Assembly: GCF_004193175.1 (NCBI RefSeq)
Contig: NZ_SAUH01000001.1
Coordinates: 1,591,501-1,655,500 of the forward strand
DNA length: 64,000 nt
Source of the DNA: Streptomyces sp. RFCAC02
GTDB lineage: Bacteria; Actinomycetota; Actinomycetes; Streptomycetales; Streptomycetaceae
Reading direction: 5' to 3'
Part shown: in pieces, positions 21,808 to 61,641 of the stretch
Layout of the letters: each line of letters opens with the position of its first letter
Position numbering within the stretch: the first letter of the stretch is position 1
Position numbers and translations under genes: made by a program
The notes under the pieces: generated by a model
Database searches by the model: none
The model's input: only the letters and a program-made list of their open reading frames with translations
Told to the model about the DNA's origin: nothing

Positions 21808-21844
21808 TGACAATCGTTTCCATTTAATCTGAAAATGGCTGTCA
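21808..21844 (+). promoter_or_regulatory. Tandem Zur-box-like sites over the znuA promoter
   Basis: Two 15-mers resemble the actinobacterial Zur consensus TGAAAATnATTTTCA: TGACAATCGTTTCCA (21808-21822) and TGAAAATGGCTGTCA (21830-21844), with centres 22 bp apart. The first overlaps a consensus -35 (TTGACA, 21807-21812). The second covers a GAAAAT -10 (21831-21836, 18-base spacer) and the expected transcription start. Zinc-bound Zur, encoded three genes downstream, would block transcription here. The consensus is from memory and should be rechecked. Confidence 0.55.
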
Positions 21845-22860
21845 TGATCGCTCGACACCGCATACATGCCCATTCCCGTTCACGCTCCCGCTCACGGATA
21901 GGCGGCTCCGCCCTCACCGCCGGGGCGGCCGCGCTGGGCCTGCTGGCCCTGACCGCCTGCGGCAGCGACGACGAGGGCGGAGGCAGCGCGGACGGGAAGC
22001 TGGACGTGGTCGCCTCGTTCTACCCGCTGCAGTTCCTGGCCGAGCGGATCGGCGGCGACCAGGTGGACGTCACCTCGCTCACCGAGCCCGGCGTCGAGCC
22101 CCATGATCTGGAACTGTCGCCCCGGCAGACGGCCTCGCTGACCGAGGCCGACCTCGTGGTGTACCTGGAGGGCCTCCAGCCCACCGTGGACGACGCGGTC
22201 GAGCAGTCGGGCGCCGAGCACGTGGCGGAGGCCACGTCGTTCACCACGCTGGAGACGCACGGCGACGACGTCGAGGGCGACGAGCACGCCGAGGACGAGC
22301 ACGCCGAGGAGGAGTCGGGCGACGGCCACGACCACGGCACCGAGGGCAAGGACCCGCACATCTGGCTCGATCCCCTGCGGTACGCCGAGGTCGCCCAGGG
22401 CGTCGGCGACGCCCTCGCGGACGCCGACCCCGACCACGCCGACACCTACGCGGCCAACACCGAGCAGCTCGTCTCGGAGCTGAACGAGCTGGACGAGGAG
22501 TTCACGACCGGGCTGGCCGATCTCCCGTCCAACACGTTCATCACGACGCACGCCGCGTTCGGCTACCTCGCCGAGCGCTACGGGCTGCACCAGGAGGCCA
22601 TCAGCGGCCTCGACCCCGAGTCCGAGCCCAGCGCGGCCCGCATGCGCGAGCTCCAGGAGATCGCGGAGGAGGACGGCGTCACCACCGTCTTCTTCGAGAC
22701 ACTGGTGAGCGACGACACGGCGCGTACCCTCGCGGGGGACCTCGGTCTGGAGACGGCGGTGCTCGACCCGCTCGAGGGCATCACCGACGACTCGGCCGGC
22801 TCGGACTACTTCGAGGTGATGCGCGCCAACCTGGACGCCCTCCGGGCGGCCCTGGCCTGA
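21844..22860 (+). CDS. znuA: Zinc ABC transporter substrate-binding lipoprotein
   Basis: A 338-residue ZnuA-type (cluster A-I) metal-binding lipoprotein. It has a long basic His/Arg/Ser n-region, a hydrophobic core and lipobox LTAC. The metal-site residues include the His in GVEPHDLEL. An acidic, His-rich loop spans about residues 138-165 (DEHAEDEHAEE, GHDHG), typical of zinc rather than manganese transporters. There is no ribosome site. With the promoter elements described, transcription should begin at or next to the ATG at 21844, so the message is probably leaderless. An in-frame ATG at 21835 is the alternative. It starts the znuA-znuC-znuB-zur run. Confidence 0.9.
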   Translation: MIARHRIHAHSRSRSRSRIGGSALTAGAAALGLLALTACGSDDEGGGSADGKLDVVASFYPLQFLAERIGGDQVDVTSLTEPGVEPHDLELSPRQTASLTEADLVVYLEGLQPTVDDAVEQSGAEHVAEATSFTTLETHGDDVEGDEHAEDEHAEEESGDGHDHGTEGKDPHIWLDPLRYAEVAQGVGDALADADPDHADTYAANTEQLVSELNELDEEFTTGLADLPSNTFITTHAAFGYLAERYGLHQEAISGLDPESEPSAARMRELQEIAEEDGVTTVFFETLVSDDTARTLAGDLGLETAVLDPLEGITDDSAGSDYFEVMRANLDALRAALA

Positions 22861-22917
22861 CGCGTCCGCCCGGGGAACCGGCCCACGGCACGACTGAAGG
22901 AAGAAGCGGAGAGCAGC

Positions 22918-23673
22918 ATGGAGCCCGTCATATCGCTGACCGGGGTGACCGCCGAGCTGGGCGGCCGACCGGTGCTGCGCGGCATCGACCTGACCGTGGG
23001 CCGGGGCGAGGTGGTGGCCCTGCTCGGCGCCAACGGCTCGGGGAAGTCCACGGCCGTGCGCGCGACCGTGGGCCAGGTCCCGGTCACCGACGGCGACCTC
23101 ACGCTCTTCGGGACGCCGGTGCGGCGGTTCCGCGAGTGGCGGCGCGTCGGGTACGTGCCGCAGCGCTCCACGGCGGCCGGCGGCGTACCGGCGACCGTGC
23201 GCGAGGTCGTCACCTCCGGGCGGCTGGCGCGGCACCGGCTGCGGCCGCTCGGCAGGGCCGACCGTGCGGCGGTGGACCGCGCGCTGGACCTGGTGGGTCT
23301 CGCCGACCGGGCGCGTGACCCGGTGGGGGCGCTGTCGGGCGGCCAGCACCAGCGGGTGCTGATCGCGCGGGCGCTGTCCGTCGAGCCTGAGCTGCTGATC
23401 ATGGACGAGCCGCTGGCCGGCGTCGACCTGGCGAGCCAGCGGGTCCTGGCGGACACGGTGCGGACGCTGGCGGCGGCGGGGACGTCCGTCCTGCTGGTGC
23501 TGCACGAGCTGGGGCCGCTCGAACCGCTCATCGACCGGGCCGTGGTCCTCGCGCACGGGCGCGTGGAGCGGACGGTGGACCACCCGGCGCAGTTACCGGA
23601 GAGCCACCCCTGCCACCCCGAGGACGAGCTGCCGCCGTCCGCCGAGCCGTCTCTCCAGACCGGGATGCTGTGA
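22918..23673 (+). CDS. znuC: Zinc ABC transporter ATP-binding protein
   Basis: A 251-residue ATPase subunit. It has Walker A LLGANGSGKST, Q-loop VPQRST, signature LSGGQHQRV and Walker B LLIMDEPLAGVD, with a downstream switch His in LHELG. The start is preceded by GGAAGAAGCGGAGAG. The C-terminal tail contains several His and acidic residues (ESHPCHPEDEL). Its stop overlaps the start of the permease gene, so it is coupled to it. It powers zinc import with ZnuA and ZnuB. Confidence 0.93.
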   Translation: MEPVISLTGVTAELGGRPVLRGIDLTVGRGEVVALLGANGSGKSTAVRATVGQVPVTDGDLTLFGTPVRRFREWRRVGYVPQRSTAAGGVPATVREVVTSGRLARHRLRPLGRADRAAVDRALDLVGLADRARDPVGALSGGQHQRVLIARALSVEPELLIMDEPLAGVDLASQRVLADTVRTLAAAGTSVLLVLHELGPLEPLIDRAVVLAHGRVERTVDHPAQLPESHPCHPEDELPPSAEPSLQTGML

Positions 23674-24554
23674 TCGCCATGTTCGAACTGCTGGATTACG
23701 CCTTCATGCAGCGGGCGCTGCTGGCCGCGCTGCTCATCGGCATCGCGGCGCCCGCCGTCGGGATCTACCTCGTGCAGCGGCAGCAGGCGCTGATGGGCGA
23801 CGGGATCGGGCACGTGGCGCTCACGGGCGTCGCGCTCGGCTTCCTCCTGAACGCCGACCCGGTGTGGGTGGCGGTGCTGGTGTCGGCGCTCGGCGCGATC
23901 GTGATGGAGCTGCTGCGGTCGTCCGGGCGGGCGCGGGGCGATGTGGCGCTGGCGATGCTGTTCTACGGCGGCATGGCGGGCGGTGTGATGATCATCAACC
24001 TGGCGCCCGGGGGGTCGACGGCGAACCTGACGTCGTACCTGTGGGGGTCGGTGACGACGGTCTCGCCGTCCGACATCGTGGCCATCTGCTGGCTCTCGGT
24101 GTTCGTGCTGGTCGTGGCACTGGGCCTGCGGCGGCAGCTGTTCGCCGTCTGCCAGGACGAGGAGTTCGCGCGGGTGACGGGCCTGCCGGTGCGCGCGCTG
24201 AACCTGCTGCTCGCCGTGACGGCGGCGGCGACCGTCACCGTGGCGATGCGGGTGGTCGGGCTGCTGCTGGTCAGCGCGCTGATGGTGATCCCGGTGGTGG
24301 CGGCGCAGCAGGCGACGCGCGGGTTCGCGATGACGCTGGTGCTGGCCATGGTGTTCGGCGTGCTGGTGTCGGTGTCCGGAACGGTCACCTCGTACTACGT
24401 GGACGTGCCGCCCGGCGGGACGATCGTGCTGCTGGCGCTGGGGCTGTTCATCGTGGTGACGCTGGCGTCCCTGCCACTGGCACGGCGGCGCGCGCGGCGG
24501 CGTGACGCGGAGGAGGCGCTCGGGGGCGCGCGAGTGCCCGCGACGCGCCCGTAG
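23670..24554 (+). CDS. znuB: Zinc ABC transporter permease
   Basis: A 294-residue membrane protein of the ABC-3 metal permease family with seven or eight helices. The conserved cytoplasmic segments QRQQALMGDGIGHVALTGVALGF and QDEEFARVTGLPVRALNLLL are present. The GTG at 23670 overlaps the znuC stop. An ATG nine bases later is an equally good start. The basic C-terminal tail (LARRRARRRDAEEA) lies in the cytoplasm. Confidence 0.92.
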   Translation: MIAMFELLDYAFMQRALLAALLIGIAAPAVGIYLVQRQQALMGDGIGHVALTGVALGFLLNADPVWVAVLVSALGAIVMELLRSSGRARGDVALAMLFYGGMAGGVMIINLAPGGSTANLTSYLWGSVTTVSPSDIVAICWLSVFVLVVALGLRRQLFAVCQDEEFARVTGLPVRALNLLLAVTAAATVTVAMRVVGLLLVSALMVIPVVAAQQATRGFAMTLVLAMVFGVLVSVSGTVTSYYVDVPPGGTIVLLALGLFIVVTLASLPLARRRARRRDAEEALGGARVPATRP

Positions 24555-24657
24555 GGCCTTCCCGGCAGACGGGCGGAGATCGGGAAACGAGCGAGGAGAG
24601 GCTACCCTGACCGAGAGAGTGTCGGGGGTCACGGAACGGCGAGGCGAGGAGAACGAC

Positions 24658-25077
24658 GTGGAGACGGCAGGACCGCCGGTGCGCGGCCGTTCGACGCGTC
24701 AGCGCGCGGCGGTCGCGGCGGCGCTGGCGGAGGTCGACGAGTTCCGCAGCGCCCAGGAGCTGCACGACATGCTGAAGCACCGGGGCGACTCGGTCGGGCT
24801 GACGACGGTGTACCGCACCCTCCAGTCCCTCGCCGACGCGGGCGAGGTCGACGTGCTGCGGACCGTCGAGGGCGAGGCGGTGTACCGCCGGTGCAGCACC
24901 GACGACCACCATCACCACCTGGTGTGCCGTGCCTGCGGCAGGGCCGTGGAGGTGGAGGGGCCGGCCGTGGAGAAGTGGGCCGACTCCATCGCGCGCGAGC
25001 ACGGCTTCGTGGACGTGGGTCACACGGTGGAGATCTTCGGGACCTGCGGGGACTGCGCGGCATCCGCCGACTCCTGA
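24658..25077 (+). CDS. zur: Zinc uptake regulator (Fur family)
   Basis: A 139-residue Fur-family repressor. The GTG at 24658 was chosen because GAGGAG (24646-24651) lies 6 bases upstream. The N-terminal winged helix reads TRQRAAVAAALAEVDEFRSAQELHDMLKHRGDSVGLTTVYRTLQSL. The dimer domain has the His cluster DDHHHHLVC and two CxxC pairs (CRAC and CGDC) for the structural zinc. With zinc bound it should repress znuA-znuC-znuB through the boxes upstream of znuA. Its place directly after znuB suggests a co-regulated unit, although about 100 bases separate them. Confidence 0.93.
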   Translation: METAGPPVRGRSTRQRAAVAAALAEVDEFRSAQELHDMLKHRGDSVGLTTVYRTLQSLADAGEVDVLRTVEGEAVYRRCSTDDHHHHLVCRACGRAVEVEGPAVEKWADSIAREHGFVDVGHTVEIFGTCGDCAASADS

Positions 25078-25191
25078 CCCGGTCGGCCGTCCCGCGCCAA
25101 CCTCCTTGCGGCACAGGGCAGTCGGTGCGCCTCATGCGTTACGGTGAGCCTTCACTGGCCGCACCCGGCAGTGTCGCGCAGGGAGGGAAAC

Positions 25192-26025
25192 GTGCCGAAC
25201 GACTCCATCGACGCCATGCAGGACCTGGGGCTCGACCGTGCCCACACGGCCCGGATCTACGACTTCCTGCTCGGCGGCAAGACGAACTACGCGCCCGACC
25301 GTGAGGCCGCCGCGCAGGCGCTGCGCGTCAATCCGCGCATCGGGACCGTCGCGCACGCCAACCGCGCGTTCATGCACCGGGTCACGCGGGTGCTGGCCGT
25401 CGAGCACGGCATCCGCCAGTGGCTGGACATCGGCACGGGCATCCCGACCTCGCCGAACCTGCACGAGGTCGCGCAGTCCGTCGCGCCGGACGCCCGCGTC
25501 GTCTACGCGGACAACGATCGCATCGTCCTGCGGCACGCCGAGGCGCTGCTGACCAGTTCCCCCGAGGGGCGTACGGCGTACATCCACGCCGACGCGTCGC
25601 GGCCGGAGACGATACTGGCCGCGCCCGAGCTGGCGGAGACACTCGACCTGACCCGGCCGGTCGCCCTCAGCCTGAACGCGCTCCTGCACTTCCTGGCGGT
25701 CGAGCCGCGCGAGGTCGTCGGGCCGCTGCTGGACGCGCTGCCGTCGGGGAGCGCCCTCGCCCTCACGCACGTGACCGGCGACCTGGACCCGGAGATGTGG
25801 GACGGGATCGCCCGCGTCTACCGCGACGCGGGGAACCCGGTGCATCTGCGCGGCCGTGAGCAGGTGGCGGCGCTGTTCGACGGCTTGGAGCTGCTGGACC
25901 CCGGCCTCGTCGTGGCACACCGCTGGCGGCCGCAGGACATCGGCGTCGGCTCGGGGGGCACGGACGACGAGGAGCTGACGGACGCCGATGTCAGCCTGTG
26001 GGCGGGTGTGGCGATCAAGCCGTGA
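25192..26025 (+). CDS. SAM-dependent methyltransferase, DUF574 family
   Basis: A 277-residue protein of the S-adenosyl methyltransferase family (DUF574) that is highly expanded in Streptomyces. The GTG at 25192 follows GGAGGGAA. Family landmarks are ARIYDFLLGGKTNYAPDREAA, the SAM motif LDIGTGIPTSPNLHEVAQ and VVYADNDRIVLRHAEALL. Substrates are not known for most members. Its stop overlaps the start of a second methyltransferase (GTGA at 26022-26025), so the two are made together. Confidence 0.9.
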   Translation: MPNDSIDAMQDLGLDRAHTARIYDFLLGGKTNYAPDREAAAQALRVNPRIGTVAHANRAFMHRVTRVLAVEHGIRQWLDIGTGIPTSPNLHEVAQSVAPDARVVYADNDRIVLRHAEALLTSSPEGRTAYIHADASRPETILAAPELAETLDLTRPVALSLNALLHFLAVEPREVVGPLLDALPSGSALALTHVTGDLDPEMWDGIARVYRDAGNPVHLRGREQVAALFDGLELLDPGLVVAHRWRPQDIGVGSGGTDDEELTDADVSLWAGVAIKP

Positions 26026-26753
26026 GCGGGGCCGGTGCGCAGCCGCCCGGTCCCGGGAACGCGTACCACGGCGCGCTCGGTGACGCCTTCGCCCGGCACT
26101 CGGGCACCAGCCCGTACAACGCGTACATCGACCGCCCGGCAGTGCTCGAACTCGCCGGGGACGTCACCGGCGCCCACGTCCTGGACGTGGGCTGCGGGGC
26201 CGGGTACTACGCGGCGGAGCTGCTGGCCAGGGGCGCGCGCGTCACCGGGGTCGACGGCAGCGCCGCGCTGCTGCGGCACGCGGCGGAACGGGTCGGCGGC
26301 CGGGCCGAGCTGCGGCTGCACGACCTGGAGACGCCACTGCACTTCGCGGCGGACGCCTCGTTCGACGGGGCGGTGTGCGCGCTGGTCCACGCGCACGTCG
26401 AGGCGCGGGACCGGCTGCTCGCGGAGATCCGCCGGGTACTGCGGCCCGGCGGCTGGCTGGTGCTCTCGGCGTCCCATCCCACGGCCGACTGGCGGCACTT
26501 CGGCGGCTCGTACTTCGACGGGAGCTGGGTGGATCTCCCGCTCCCCGGCTCGTCGGAAGCCATCCGGTACCGGCGGCTGACGCTGGAGACCCTCATGACG
26601 GAGTGGCTCGCCGCCGGCTTCACGGTGGAGCGGCTGACCGAGCCGCGTCCGCTGCCGGCGCTGCGGGAGATCGACGCTGCGCTCCATGAGCGGCTGTGTG
26701 CGGAGCCGTCCTTCCTGGCCGTGCGGCTCCGCAATCCCGCCGGGCCTGGCTGA
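26022..26753 (+). CDS. Class I SAM-dependent methyltransferase
   Basis: A 243-residue methyltransferase translationally coupled to the DUF574 gene. SAM-binding motif I is VLDVGCGAGYYAAELLARGARVTGVD, and a post-motif segment ILRVLRPGGWLVLSASHP-like (RRVLRPGGWLVLSASHPTADW) marks the UbiE/small-molecule methyltransferase group. The sequence AYHGALGDAFARHSGTSPYNAYIDRPA precedes the Rossmann fold. The substrate is unknown. The gene ends 33 bases before a 17-bp terminator hairpin shared with the small peptide gene on the other strand. Confidence 0.88.
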   Translation: MSGAGAQPPGPGNAYHGALGDAFARHSGTSPYNAYIDRPAVLELAGDVTGAHVLDVGCGAGYYAAELLARGARVTGVDGSAALLRHAAERVGGRAELRLHDLETPLHFAADASFDGAVCALVHAHVEARDRLLAEIRRVLRPGGWLVLSASHPTADWRHFGGSYFDGSWVDLPLPGSSEAIRYRRLTLETLMTEWLAAGFTVERLTEPRPLPALREIDAALHERLCAEPSFLAVRLRNPAGPG

Positions 26754-26785
26754 CGGCTCCGGCGGCCGTTTCCTTTCCGGCGAAA

Positions 26786-26824
26786 CGATGGGGCGCGCGG
26801 CCACGGAGGCCGCGCGCCCCATCG
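26786..26824. terminator. Strong bidirectional hairpin terminator
   Basis: A perfect 17-bp stem (26786-26802 with 26808-26824) with a 5-base loop lies between the methyltransferase stop (26753) and the stop of the minus-strand peptide gene (26845). It can end both transcripts. Confidence 0.75.
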
Positions 26825-26844
26825 GTGCGACGCATGGAACCAAG

Positions 26845-26913
26845 TCAGCCGATGATCAGGATGTCCAGGTCGGCGCCGATGATGAGGATGTCGAGGTCAC
26901 GGGACTTGTTCAT
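26845..26913 (-). CDS. Unrecognised 22-residue hydrophobic repeat peptide
   Basis: A short gene encoding 22 residues: a charged head (MNKSR) followed by two copies of DLDILIIG joined by one Ala, ending directly after the second copy. AAGGAG (complement of 26921-26926) lies 7 bases before the ATG. A 17-bp hairpin follows the stop by about 20 bases. The two 24-base repeat units differ at two positions, both the third base of a Leu codon (CTC against CTG), so the peptide sequence appears to be under selection. No Cys, Ser/Thr or aromatic core is present beyond the single Ser near the start. I do not recognise the peptide. Possibilities are a membrane-active or type I toxin-like peptide, a precursor, or an assembling structural peptide. 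None is established. Confidence 0.75.
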   Translation of the reverse strand: MNKSRDLDILIIGADLDILIIG

Positions 26914-27501
26914 GGTAACTCTCCTTAAATGCACGACATTTGGGCGAGCTGTGGTGCGGGTGTCACGGTAGTTGGTCGAGTGACGACCACACCAGACCGT
27001 ATGGGACCGGTTTTCGGTCGTCCCTGTGTGTCCGCGCCATTCGGGAGGTGTTACGCGATCCCCGCACGTCCGGCGCACGGCCGACCACGTCGCGGTCCCG
27101 GCGGCCGACGGCGCATTCACACCCGCGCCCGGATCTCACGACCCGTCAATCGGTCTTCTGAACAAGGCGAATGCACAGCAACTCGCACGTCGTTCCCGCT
27201 TCGGGTGCACCGCACTCCGGTCGCCCGCCGGGTACCGCGCCGGTGACGGTCCGGCGTCCTTTCGACAGCCGTTCGACGGCCGAAAAATGACCCCTCCTCG
27301 TGCACACGACACAACGAGTGCGACTGAAATGCGACCCTCACCGATCGAAATGCCACTTCTTTTAACGCAATGGTCATGAAGCGAAAGCCACGCACAAGCG
27401 ATCTCCCGGGGTGAGCCGCGCACAACGCCCACCTCCCGCGTTCCCTCCCGTGCCCGTACAGACTGGACGGGCAGCCAGCACGCCGTCCCCCGGAGCAGCG
27501 C
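26914..27501. other. Non-coding, less GC-rich region upstream of the small peptide gene
   Basis: This 588-bp stretch holds no convincing gene. Open frames crossing it lack ribosome sites and use codons (TTA, ATT, AAA, TTT) unlike the neighbouring genes. Its composition is visibly poorer in G/C, especially 27290-27400. It contains two short dyads, TGGTCG/CGACCA (26973-26989) and GACCG/CGGTC (27005-27019), upstream of the minus-strand peptide gene, and must also carry the promoter of the rightward reductase-deaminase gene. I could not assign a clear -35/-10 pair to either gene. Confidence 0.5.
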
Positions 27502-28632
27502 ATGACGACCCCCGACCTGCCGTCCGTCCTGTTGTCCGTCGCCATGTCCGTCGACGGGCGCATCGACGACGCGACACCCGACCGCCTCGTCCTCTCGGGC
27601 GCCGACGACCTCGACCGGGTGGACGAGGTGCGCGCCGCGCACGACGCGATCCTCGTCGGCGCCGGCACGATCCGCGCCGACGACCCGCGCCTGCTGGTCC
27701 GCTCGGCCGCGCGCCGCCGCGCCCGCGTCGCGGCGGGGCTGCCGGAGAACCCCCTCAAGGCCGCCCTCAGCGGCTCGGGCGACCTCGACCCGGCCGCCGC
27801 GTTCTTCACGGCGGGACCGGCCGACAGGGTGGTCTACTGCCCGACCCCCGCCGTCCCCCGCGCGCGGGCGCGCCTCGGCGGCGCGGCGCCCGTCGTGGAC
27901 GGCGGCGACCCGTTCGACCTCGCCCGCGTCCTCGCCGACCTGCGCGGGCGCGGCGTGCGGCGGCTGATGGTCGAGGGCGGCGCGACGGTGCACACGCGGT
28001 TCCTCGAAGCGGGCCTCGTGGACGAACTGCACCTGGTGATCGCGCCGTTCCTCGTCGGCGACGCGACCGCGCCCCCATTCACGCGCCCGGGCCGCTTCCC
28101 GTACGGGCCGGGGAACCGCCTGACCCTCACGGAGACGCGCCCCGTCGGTGACTGCGTCCTGCTGCGCTACACGGCCACCCGGCCGGGCCACGACCACGAC
28201 CGCTGGATGGCGTTCGCGACCGCCCTGGCACGCCGCTGCCCGCCGTCCTCCTCCGCCTACTCGGTCGGCGCGGTGATCGTCGGCGAGGCGGGGGACGTCC
28301 TGGCGACCGGCTGGTCCCGCGAGGGCGACCCGCACGACCACGCGGAGGAAGCGGCCCTGGCCAAACTCCCCCCGGACGACCCGCGCCTCACGAAGGCGAC
28401 GCTCTACACATCGCTGGAACCCTGCACGACCCGCGCATCACGCCCGCACTCCTGCACGGACCTGATCCTGCGCGCGGGCATCCCCTCCGTGGTCCTGGCA
28501 TGGCGCGAACCACCACTGTTCGCGGACTGCACAGGCACAGAGACACTGCGGGAAGCGGGCGTACACGTGACAGAACTCCCCTCCCACACCCCGGCAGCCC
28601 GCCACCCGAACACCCACCTCCCCACCGTCTGA
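27502..28632 (+). CDS. Reductase-deaminase fusion, RibD-like with reversed domain order
   Basis: A 376-residue protein. Residues 1-235 are a RibD-C/dihydrofolate-reductase-like domain (LLSVAMSVDGRIDDATPDR, DAILVGAGTIRADDPRL, RRLMVEGGATVHTRFL). Residues about 240-376 are a cytidine-deaminase-fold domain with the zinc site His280-Ala-Glu282 and Cys308/Cys318 (EPCTTRASRPHSC). Standard riboflavin RibD has the deaminase first, so the order is reversed and the Cys spacing is one longer than usual. It could catalyse both steps on a riboflavin-like pyrimidine or act in specialised metabolism. No other rib genes are nearby. GGAG lies 8 bases before the ATG. Confidence 0.82.
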   Translation: MTTPDLPSVLLSVAMSVDGRIDDATPDRLVLSGADDLDRVDEVRAAHDAILVGAGTIRADDPRLLVRSAARRRARVAAGLPENPLKAALSGSGDLDPAAAFFTAGPADRVVYCPTPAVPRARARLGGAAPVVDGGDPFDLARVLADLRGRGVRRLMVEGGATVHTRFLEAGLVDELHLVIAPFLVGDATAPPFTRPGRFPYGPGNRLTLTETRPVGDCVLLRYTATRPGHDHDRWMAFATALARRCPPSSSAYSVGAVIVGEAGDVLATGWSREGDPHDHAEEAALAKLPPDDPRLTKATLYTSLEPCTTRASRPHSCTDLILRAGIPSVVLAWREPPLFADCTGTETLREAGVHVTELPSHTPAARHPNTHLPTV

Positions 28633-28701
28633 GCCCCCCGGTCGGCGGAGTGGGGTAGCTTCTCGGGTGGTGTGTACACCTATCCGTGGAAGGTGGCCGG
28701 T

Positions 28702-29496
28702 ATGGAGCGGTCCGTCGTCGTCGAGCTCGACGATGTCAGTGTCCGGCGGTACGTGACCGGGCAGGTCATCCTCGACCGGGTCGGGCTGCGTATCGGCGCC
28801 GGTGAGCACTGGGCGCTCCTCGGCGCGAACGGCGCGGGGAAGACGTCGCTCCTGCGGGTCGTCGGCGCCGTCACGCATCCCACGTCGGGCACCGCCCGCA
28901 TCCTCGGGCACCGGCTCGGGCGGGTGGACGTGCGGGAGCTGCGCGCGCGGCTCGGGCACGTCTCGTCGTCGCAGCGCGTCCCGCAGGACCAGACCGCCAC
29001 CACGGTCGTGCTGACCGGGGCCAGCGGCACCGTGCAGCCGCTGTGGCGCGCCTACGACGACGCCGTCCGCGAGCGTGCCCGCGCGCTGCTCGCCGAGCTG
29101 GACTGCAAGGACTTCGCCGACCGGCCCTTCGGCGTCTGCTCGGGCGGGCAGCGGGCACGCGTCCTCGTGGCGCGCGCCCTCATGCCGGACCCGTCGCTGC
29201 TGCTGCTCGACGAGCCGTTCAACGCCCTCGACCTGCCGTCCCGCGAGGACCTGGTGGACGCCCTCGCCCGCCTCGCCACGACACGGCCGGACCTCACCAC
29301 CGTCACCGTGACCCACCACCTGGAGGAGCTGCCGCCCACCACCAGCCACGCCCTGCTGCTGCGCGAGGGCCGGGTGCTGGCGAGCGGGCCGGTCGGGGAC
29401 GTCCTCACCGGCGAGGCGCTGAGCGCCTGCTTCGGCCGCCCCGTCGAGGTGACGCGGCAGCACGGCCGCTGGTACGCGCGCTCGGGGCGGCCGTAG
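28702..29496 (+). CDS. Stand-alone ABC transporter ATP-binding protein
   Basis: A 264-residue ABC ATPase. The ATG at 28702 follows GGAAGG by 9 bases. The frame extends upstream to a GTG at 28672 without a ribosome site. It has Walker A LLGANGAGKTS, Q-loop region SSSQRVPQDQTATTV, signature CSGGQRARV, Walker B LLLLDEPFNALD and the switch His in VTHHLEELP. The family resembles ModF/YlmA-type ATPases. No permease or binding protein is adjacent, so its partner or an alternative role (for example regulatory or translation-related ATPase) is unknown. Confidence 0.85.
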   Translation: MERSVVVELDDVSVRRYVTGQVILDRVGLRIGAGEHWALLGANGAGKTSLLRVVGAVTHPTSGTARILGHRLGRVDVRELRARLGHVSSSQRVPQDQTATTVVLTGASGTVQPLWRAYDDAVRERARALLAELDCKDFADRPFGVCSGGQRARVLVARALMPDPSLLLLDEPFNALDLPSREDLVDALARLATTRPDLTTVTVTHHLEELPPTTSHALLLREGRVLASGPVGDVLTGEALSACFGRPVEVTRQHGRWYARSGRP

Positions 29497-53179: not shown

Positions 53180-53361
53180 GGGTGGCCGCGGGACCGGCCT
53201 GCTCATCCCTCTCTGCACTGGACTGCCGGGCCTCCAGGGTACGACGCGGCGCCCGGACCGCCACAGGGAATACGGGGCGAACGGCCGCCGCCGCCCCGGA
53301 CGTCGGCCCAGGCCCCGCCGTCTTGACACACGGCTTGACCCACGGCCGGGCGGGCAGGGCG

Positions 53362-60051: not shown

Positions 60052-61641
60052 TCAGGACGCGGCGGCCGGGGACGGGGTGATGACGCGGCCGGCGCGGTGC
60101 GGGGTGAGGGCGCCGTCGAGGAGGGCGGCGACGCCGTTCACCAGCACCGTCGAGAAGCCCGTGGAGAGCTGCCACGGCTCCTCGTACGTCGCGCGGTCGG
60201 TCACCGTCGCCGCGTCGAACACGGCGATGTCGGCCGCCGCCCCGACCCGCAGCACGCCCCGGTCCGCCGCCCGGATGCGCGCGGCGGGCAGGGACGTCAT
60301 CCGCCGCACCGCCTCCTCCAGCGGGAGCACGCCCCGCTCCCTGACGTACCGGCCCAGGACGCGGGAGAACGTGCCGAAGCTGCGCGGGTGCGGGCGGCCG
60401 GTGCGTTCGGCCGTCATCACCCAGCCGTCGCTGGCGACCGACACCCACGGGTGCCGCAGCACCGTCTCGACGTCCGCCTCGCTCATCGCGTGGTTGACGA
60501 TGCCGACGCCGAGGCGGTGGTGCTCCAGCACCCGCAGCGCCGCCTCCGCCGGGTCGGTGCCCTCGGCGCGGCCGATGTCCGCGAGGGAGCGGCCGACGCT
60601 GCCGCTGTAGCGGCCCTCGGGGAGCGCGGCGATGACGACGCCCTCCGGGTCGATGTCGCGGCCGAACCGCGCCCGCAGCTCGGCCGCGATCTTCTCCCTG
60701 ACCGGCGGGTCGGCGAGCCGGGCGAGTGTCGGCTCCACGCCGCCGTCGACGGCCCAGGCGGGCAGGCGGGACACGAGGCCGGTGCTCGACGCGGTGTACG
60801 GGTACACGTCGGCGGTGACGTCGACGCCGCGCTCGCGTGCGGCGTCGATCAGGGCGAGCGCCTCGGTGACGGCGCCGTGGTTCTCCGGCCCCATGGCCTT
60901 CAGGTGGGAGATCTCCAGGCGGGCGCCGCCGGCCTCGGCGGCGCCGATCGCCTCGCGCACGGCGTCGATGACGTGGAACGTCTCGTTCCGTATGTGTGTG
61001 GAGTAGAGCAGCCCGGCGGACGCGGCGGCGGCGACCAGCGCCCGCACCTCCTCGGGCGACGCGAACACGCCGGGCATGTAGATCAGGCCGGTGGAGAACC
61101 CGACCGCGCCCTGCCGGGCGGCCTGCGTGACGAGGTCGCACATGCGGCGCAGTTCGTCCTCGTTCGGCGGGCGGTCGTCCATGCCGAGGACGGCGAGGCG
61201 GATCGCGTTGTGCCCGACCTGGAGGGCGAGGTTCACGGCCGGGGCGACGCGCGTCATGGCCTCCCCGAAGCCGGCCGCGTCCCGCCACGTCCAGCTCAGC
61301 GCCGAGCCGTCCAGCACGCCGGAGCGCGGGCGTGTCCCGTCGGCGTCGAGCGGGAACGGCGAGTGCCCGCAGTTGCCGGTGACGAGGGTGGTGACGCCCT
61401 GCGTGATCTGCGTGTCGGCGCCCGGGTCGGGTTCGACGGCGAAGTCGGCGTGCGAGTGCAGGTCGATGAAGCCGGGGGTGACGGTCTGCCCGGTCGCGTC
61501 GATCTCGCGCCGCCCGGTCAGGCGGCCGGGGGACAGCGCGGAGATCCGGCCGCCCGTGACGCCCACCGACAGCCGGCGGCCCGGGGTCCCGGTGCCGTCG
61601 ACGACCGTGCCGCCGTTGATGACGATGTCGTGGTCGGTCAT
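60052..61641 (-). CDS. N-acyl-D-amino-acid deacylase (D-aminoacylase)
   Basis: A 529-residue amidohydrolase-superfamily enzyme that removes acyl groups from N-acyl-D-amino acids. The metal-binding HxH lies in TPGFIDLHSHADF, with further features GNCGHSPFP, YSTHIRNE, LEISHLKAMG and the catalytic Asp region SVASDGWVM. It is 13 bases downstream of a permease gene on the same strand with GGGGAGG before the ATG. The operon appears dedicated to uptake and use of D-amino-acid derivatives. Confidence 0.9.
   Translation of the reverse strand: MTDHDIVINGGTVVDGTGTPGRRLSVGVTGGRISALSPGRLTGRREIDATGQTVTPGFIDLHSHADFAVEPDPGADTQITQGVTTLVTGNCGHSPFPLDADGTRPRSGVLDGSALSWTWRDAAGFGEAMTRVAPAVNLALQVGHNAIRLAVLGMDDRPPNEDELRRMCDLVTQAARQGAVGFSTGLIYMPGVFASPEEVRALVAAAASAGLLYSTHIRNETFHVIDAVREAIGAAEAGGARLEISHLKAMGPENHGAVTEALALIDAARERGVDVTADVYPYTASSTGLVSRLPAWAVDGGVEPTLARLADPPVREKIAAELRARFGRDIDPEGVVIAALPEGRYSGSVGRSLADIGRAEGTDPAEAALRVLEHHRLGVGIVNHAMSEADVETVLRHPWVSVASDGWVMTAERTGRPHPRSFGTFSRVLGRYVRERGVLPLEEAVRRMTSLPAARIRAADRGVLRVGAAADIAVFDAATVTDRATYEEPWQLSTGFSTVLVNGVAALLDGALTPHRAGRVITPSPAAAS

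Follow-up and report, generated by a model that had tools for sequence, protein, structure and literature searches.

The 64,000-nucleotide stretch of Streptomyces sp. RFCAC02 DNA that we analysed (the window) holds, in an intergenic region, a reading frame of 22 residues on the minus strand, most of which consists of two copies of the octapeptide DLDILIIG. This raises the question of whether so short a frame is a gene at all and, if it is, what kind of product it would encode. The reading that we favour, at about even weight, is that of a genuine translated single-gene microprotein, which would be young, lineage-restricted and probably cytosolic, and which would act by β-strand pairing.

The reading frame and its internal repeat

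A preliminary description of this DNA had reported the minus-strand ORF, an AAGGAG sequence 7 nt from its ATG and a 17-bp hairpin about 20 nt downstream. All of these were confirmed by reading the sequence, and the proper spacing of ribosome site and start codon with them. The intergenic region contains the following features.

26845..26913, minus strand: peptide ORF MNKSRDLDILIIGADLDILIIG followed by TGA (ATG, 21 codons, TGA; sequence reading and coding-frame likelihood)
26875..26898, minus strand: first 24-nt unit, DLDILIIG, with CTC Leu codons (repeat comparison)
26848..26871, minus strand: second 24-nt unit, DLDILIIG, with CTG Leu codons, 27-nt period (repeat comparison)
26921..26926, minus strand: Shine-Dalgarno (SD) sequence AAGGAG, 7-nt spacer (AGTTACC) to the ATG
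26786..26824, either strand: perfect 17-bp hairpin between two convergent genes (stem 26786-26802 / 26808-26824, 5-nt loop)
26927..27501, minus strand: remaining upstream intergenic region, divergent from a RibD-like gene; the 100 nt preceding the ATG have a GC content of 0.56, compared with 0.74 over the whole window
26973..26989, either strand: palindrome TGGTCG-TCACT-CGACCA, roughly 60 nt ahead of the peptide's start codon, with flanks ACGGT...ACCGT
27321-27352, minus strand: direct repeat CATTTCNNTCG, occurring twice at a distance of 21 bp (two helical turns)

Coding potential was scored against a null of local composition, with codon frequencies taken from 20 genes of the window (7501 codons). 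The log-likelihood ratio of the peptide frame was +22 bits on all 21 codons and +10.1 bits on the 13 non-duplicated ones, while the other five frames over the site scored between -12 and -50 bits. The peptide frame is hence the only one of the six with the codon use of the host, which supports the earlier proposal of a gene too short for annotation. ORFs on the plus strand across the site were rejected because of their negative coding score. Third codon positions are G or C in 20 of 21 codons, and in 12 of 13 among the independent codons; the chance probability of the latter value is 0.007 at the local GC of 0.565, 0.03 at 0.65 and 0.11 at 0.74.

A strong SD sequence with an ATG and an ORF of at least 10 amino acids arose by chance in 67 of 2000 shuffles (3.4%) of the 748-nt region. 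Such a combination is therefore expected many times per genome, and SD, ATG and stop alone are weak evidence on a genome-wide scale. When at least 20 amino acids and a GC3 of at least 0.95 were required in addition, criteria chosen after the ORF had been seen, none of the 2000 shuffles qualified. Codon use is better coding evidence than the SD, start and stop signs, and we consider it likely that a real gene is translated at 26845-26913.

The two 24-nt units are identical at 22 of 24 positions, with a period of 27 nt. As described before, the differences lie at two Leu positions and are synonymous, both being CTC/CTG exchanges. Exact matches to the unit in the window are confined to the two copies in the ORF. 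One further match with 3 mismatches lies at 61612-61635; with up to 3 mismatches allowed, shuffled sequence averaged 0.00 matches. The preliminary description had concluded from the synonymous differences that the peptide itself is under selection. This conclusion is weakly supported, as the probability that both changes are synonymous is 0.05 for changes to any base and 0.03 for C<->G changes (n = 2), so that the pattern is suggestive of selection and nothing beyond that.

The strongest competing explanation is a chance or neutral ORF, in which the locus would give a non-coding or small RNA, or no transcript, and the start, the SD sequence and a 27-bp microduplication would coincide without a selected product. 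The rate of SD-plus-ORF combinations among the shuffles is in line with it, and so is the presence of two changes only between the copies. However, the codon use of window genes appears in the peptide frame only, with +10 bits on codons that owe nothing to the duplication. We regard a chance ORF as a distinct, though minor, possibility.

Flanking signals and neighbouring genes

The hairpin begins 20 nt past the stop codon of the peptide ORF and also 32 nt past that of the convergent methyltransferase gene, and the 62 nt around it have a folding energy of -45.7 kcal/mol (z -5.3). It had been taken for a terminator. The 17-bp stem is perfect; a real U-tract is lacking, the peptide strand reading UUUCG, and a scan for consensus terminators reported none at the hairpin. 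With the stops of both convergent genes so near, no U-tract and no terminator from the consensus scan, the hairpin may serve either transcript or both; it is probably a shared (bidirectional) terminator of the peptide gene and the converging methyltransferase gene. So strong a hairpin would suit an RNA equally well, as a chance ORF would have it, but no Rfam family scored above its gathering score in the peptide intergenic region. The sole Rfam match at E<=1, to a snoRNA model, reached 17.4 bits where the gathering score is 49.

Two observations upstream count against a gene. Part of the AAGGAG may be engaged in a weak 5' hairpin (z -0.35), and no match to a sigma-70-type promoter was found in the upstream intergenic region. 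The palindrome at 26973..26989 is a possible operator. The direct repeat CATTTCNNTCG, of which the window holds no other copies on either strand, may serve as a regulator site between the two divergent genes, the RibD-like one and that of the peptide. Elsewhere in the window, at 53322-53346, there are two head-to-tail copies of CTTGACACACGG, each with a TTGACA-like hexamer.

The genes around the peptide ORF are the following.

25144..26025, plus strand: MT1, Methyltransf_19 (PF04672) gene, first gene of an inserted-looking block (family search)
25998..26753, plus strand: MT2, convergent class I methyltransferase, Methyltransf_11 (family search)
27502..28632, plus strand: divergent RibD_C + deaminase fusion gene (family search)
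28672-29496: ABC ATPase between zur and uppS (locus comparison)

MT1, MT2, the peptide gene on the opposite strand and the RibD_C-deaminase fusion form a block of about 3.5 kb between zur and the ABC ATPase. The genes that we call znuA, znuB, znuC, zur and uppS are presumed to be such from their translations, without a family search. In the fusion at 27502-28632 the order of RibD_C and deaminase is the reverse of the usual RibD order. A leader peptide or uORF was rejected, since immediately downstream of the ORF the called genes (21835-26753) lie on the plus strand, behind the hairpin.

A comparison of 32 Streptomyces zur loci placed uppS after zur in 27, at a varying distance; of the remaining five, two end at the contig end at or soon after zur (including the closest, S. 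hainanensis) and three have uppS on the other side. MT1, MT2 and RibD had no match at E<=1e-10 in these 32 loci, two of which end as just described, and for MT1 and MT2 none was found at E<=1e-8 in a wider set of fetched loci. Streptomyces sp. SBT349 has, directly after zur, an ABC ATPase 77% identical to that of the window (locus L036). The best matches to the latter in the other 31 loci reach at most 37% identity, and there it is znuC that matches. Thus, judging by gene order, the block from MT1 to RibD looks like a lineage-specific insertion.

Its members are found elsewhere in other company. RibD homologues occur in 188 of 392 genus genomes including the source, the non-own ones being 55-60% identical among the matches listed, and the 29 non-own RibD loci that were fetched contain neither a methyltransferase nor a peptide-like motif. 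MT2 homologues (E<=1e-50) occur in 21 of the 392 genomes, again including the source. In the 19 of 20 non-own MT2 loci that were examined, the sole motif match lies inside a 513-codon frame of one locus (L128), and neither MT1 nor RibD adjoins the MT2 homologues.

Search for relatives of the peptide

The preliminary description had named the lack of a homologous short ORF in related genomes as something that would speak against its reading. No such ORF was found in any set searched, although genomes very near the source may be missing from these. No relative was detected in 391 other genomes of the genus (E<=0.1), where the source genome alone matched. The same holds for 292 other genomes of the order (E<=0.5), apart from two weak matches in long frames, and for 393 other genomes of the class (E<=0.1), if three weak matches with E-values of 0.01-0.09, whose frames span 345-1167 codons, are set aside; the three samples overlap in membership. 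A search of 60 relatives and the source genome at E<=10 gave three weak non-own matches (E 1.2-6.2), all in long frames. There was no match at E<=10 in 18 named relatives, a manual selection from those represented by the 32 Streptomyces zur loci that includes the four highest in ZnuA identity; the same query recovers the source genome in the search of the 60 relatives and in the genus, order and class searches. Plasmids, phages and viral contigs (the viral ones by pattern) yielded no relative. In a scan of contigs from 84,980 species, whose query was the 91-codon frame containing the peptide and whose pattern misses peptides with changed residues, 146 stretches matched the pattern and none passed tblastn at E<=1e-3.

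The eight weak matches from the 60 relatives, the order and the class all lie in frames of 319-1604 codons, for which we presume protein names from the translations and from no family search. Among the 60 relatives these are a FAD monooxygenase-like start, MNSSRPLDVLVVGAGPTGL (E 1.2), a 353-codon frame and an amino-acid-kinase-like frame. In the order, one match is an N-terminus like that of GlpD and the other runs antisense to an ABC binding protein, and the class matches are a sugar-kinase-like frame, one frame without a name and another GlpD-like start. The preliminary description knew of no described family like the peptide. This agrees with the absence of any Pfam family at E<=10 (HMMER filters drop most matches above 0.1), of any match in the PDB and of the exact string DLDILIIG from the main text of 5.39 million papers.

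A motif scan over 112 loci not holding the peptide (1.57 Mb) gave two chance matches only, one in a 382-codon frame (L049) and one in a frame of 14 codons that runs from stop to stop and has no start (L090). When the 248-nt DNA at 26753-27000 was compared with the 18 named relatives and the source, every genome gave matches at E<=1, which are taken as chance. Seven non-own loci matching this DNA with E-values of 5e-5 to 2.4e-3 were examined, and all match within the hairpin or the repeat; one (L186) reads as an LCP-type protein, another (L188) as a flavoprotein start, and the other five show nothing peptide-like.

Since no relative appears in the genomes searched, the peptide gene looks young and lineage-specific; a chance ORF would equally be expected to lack homologues in these sets. 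Of the named species, the nearest (S. hainanensis, S. sp. SBT349, S. specialis and S. sp. 8K308) share 70-76% identity in ZnuA. Because genomes very near the source may be missing, absence from these searches does not equal non-conservation within the species group.

A further explanation is a remnant: a flavoprotein gene would have lost its body on arrival of the methyltransferase genes, leaving its 5' end with the start, the SD sequence and the first strand, and the strand would then have been duplicated. The stretch MNKSRDLDILIIGA resembles flavoprotein N-termini, and with the N-terminal strand of FAD-dependent proteins (FAD_binding_3, PF01494; GlpD) the peptide shares D-[VIL]-LI-[IV]-G-A near the start codon. 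Besides MNSSRPLDVLVVGAGPTGL, which comes from a genome of the genus, two of the other weak matches are GlpD-like starts, and the insertion-like appearance of the block would fit as well. In contrast to FAD-dependent proteins, the peptide has no protein body and a doubled unit, and the GxGxxG expected after the first strand is absent, the sequence reading GAD and G-stop. Furthermore, the strand motif is generic, and a search of the 29 fetched non-own RibD loci with one regular expression revealed no flavoprotein-type motif. Within the source genome, the intergenic DNA matched at 42 places, its own locus among them. Of the matches covering the ORF, five were read, and none is a flavoprotein start; one of the five (L148, G000:C1:2851100-2851700) reads GDLDILIGYDL inside an open frame, a one-unit likeness in both DNA and protein. 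Nor did DLDILIIG occur in any motif line from 27 of 30 fetched PF01494 loci of the source genome. Taken together, a remnant is unlikely.

Properties of the product and a proposed role

The peptide carries a net charge of -2 with four Asp residues, is not cationic and has a GRAVY value of 0.84. Its longest uncharged run, ILIIGA, comprises 6 residues, so that, with this charge, it has no membrane span.

In a precursor of a processed or modified peptide (a RiPP or a secreted signal), an idea of the preliminary description, the two identical units after a short head would be core copies, and two methyltransferase genes do adjoin. Biarylitide precursors (PMC13417212), like other minimal RiPP precursors, are reported to be encoded by similarly small genes missed by gene finders, which shows that genes of this size can be real; in contrast to these, the neighbours scanned here include no P450 and the peptide has no aromatic residues. 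The idea found no support, in that no typical RiPP enzyme domain was detected in the 24 of 53 called window ORFs that were scanned, and the repeat DLDILIIG offers no Cys, Ser, Thr, Lys or aromatic residue for modification, although Asp-directed chemistry is conceivable. The head counts 5 residues only, acidic residues would rule out a classical Sec signal, and the methyltransferase genes are on the opposite strand. A precursor role is thus very unlikely. A small membrane toxin or antimicrobial peptide, akin to the membrane-active or toxin-like peptide suggested before, is most improbable of all: the peptide is short, hydrophobic and orphan, has its own hairpin and is alike in size and hydrophobicity to type I toxins and small membrane proteins, but it is acidic and cannot span a membrane.

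The unit is amphipathic as a strand. Its hydrophobic moment reaches 0.44-0.46 at 160-180 degrees but is 0.05 at 100 degrees, and the mean Chou-Fasman value over LDILII is 1.32 for β and 1.11 for α. The strand moment of the whole peptide is lower (0.14-0.24, against 0.10 as a helix). The assembling β-strand peptide that had likewise been suggested before would be compatible with the analysis. With an amphipathic unit, no membrane span and no leader role, a cytosolic strand-forming peptide was therefore chosen. Given translation, a strand-pairing mechanism, judged by composition only, can be put forward tentatively.

For the favoured microprotein, we infer transcription, translation, the youth of the gene, strand pairing and any function. 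A single-gene transcript with a strong ribosome site would end at the hairpin common to the converging methyltransferase gene, and a 27-bp in-frame tandem duplication would have doubled an 8-residue strand. The acidic (net -2), hydrophobic product, having neither a membrane span nor the usual modifiable residues, would stay in the cytosol. There it may pair with itself, with a Gly-Ala turn between two amphipathic strands of the same sequence, or, alternatively, add a strand to a partner protein. It is a long shot that we are looking at a newborn gene just after duplication, with its own transcription unit and no known family, whose doubled 8-residue strand would be self-assembling (amyloid- or surfactant-like) or partner-binding.

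A comparable case is provided by the Streptomyces smORF peptides of the S. xinghaiensis peptidogenomic set (PMC10654065), which are likewise encoded by unannotated intergenic short ORFs with a ribosome site and coding-type codons. The gene described here differs from that set in its internal tandem duplication and is known from sequence alone.

If the frame is not translated, it would be a useful caution that SD, ATG and stop often coincide by chance and that little can be concluded from two synonymous differences. If it is translated, it would show cleanly how a gene is born in a high-GC bacterium, with one strand duplicated in frame and equipped with its own ribosome site and terminator within a lineage-specific block, and this is testable through the synthesis of a 22-mer.
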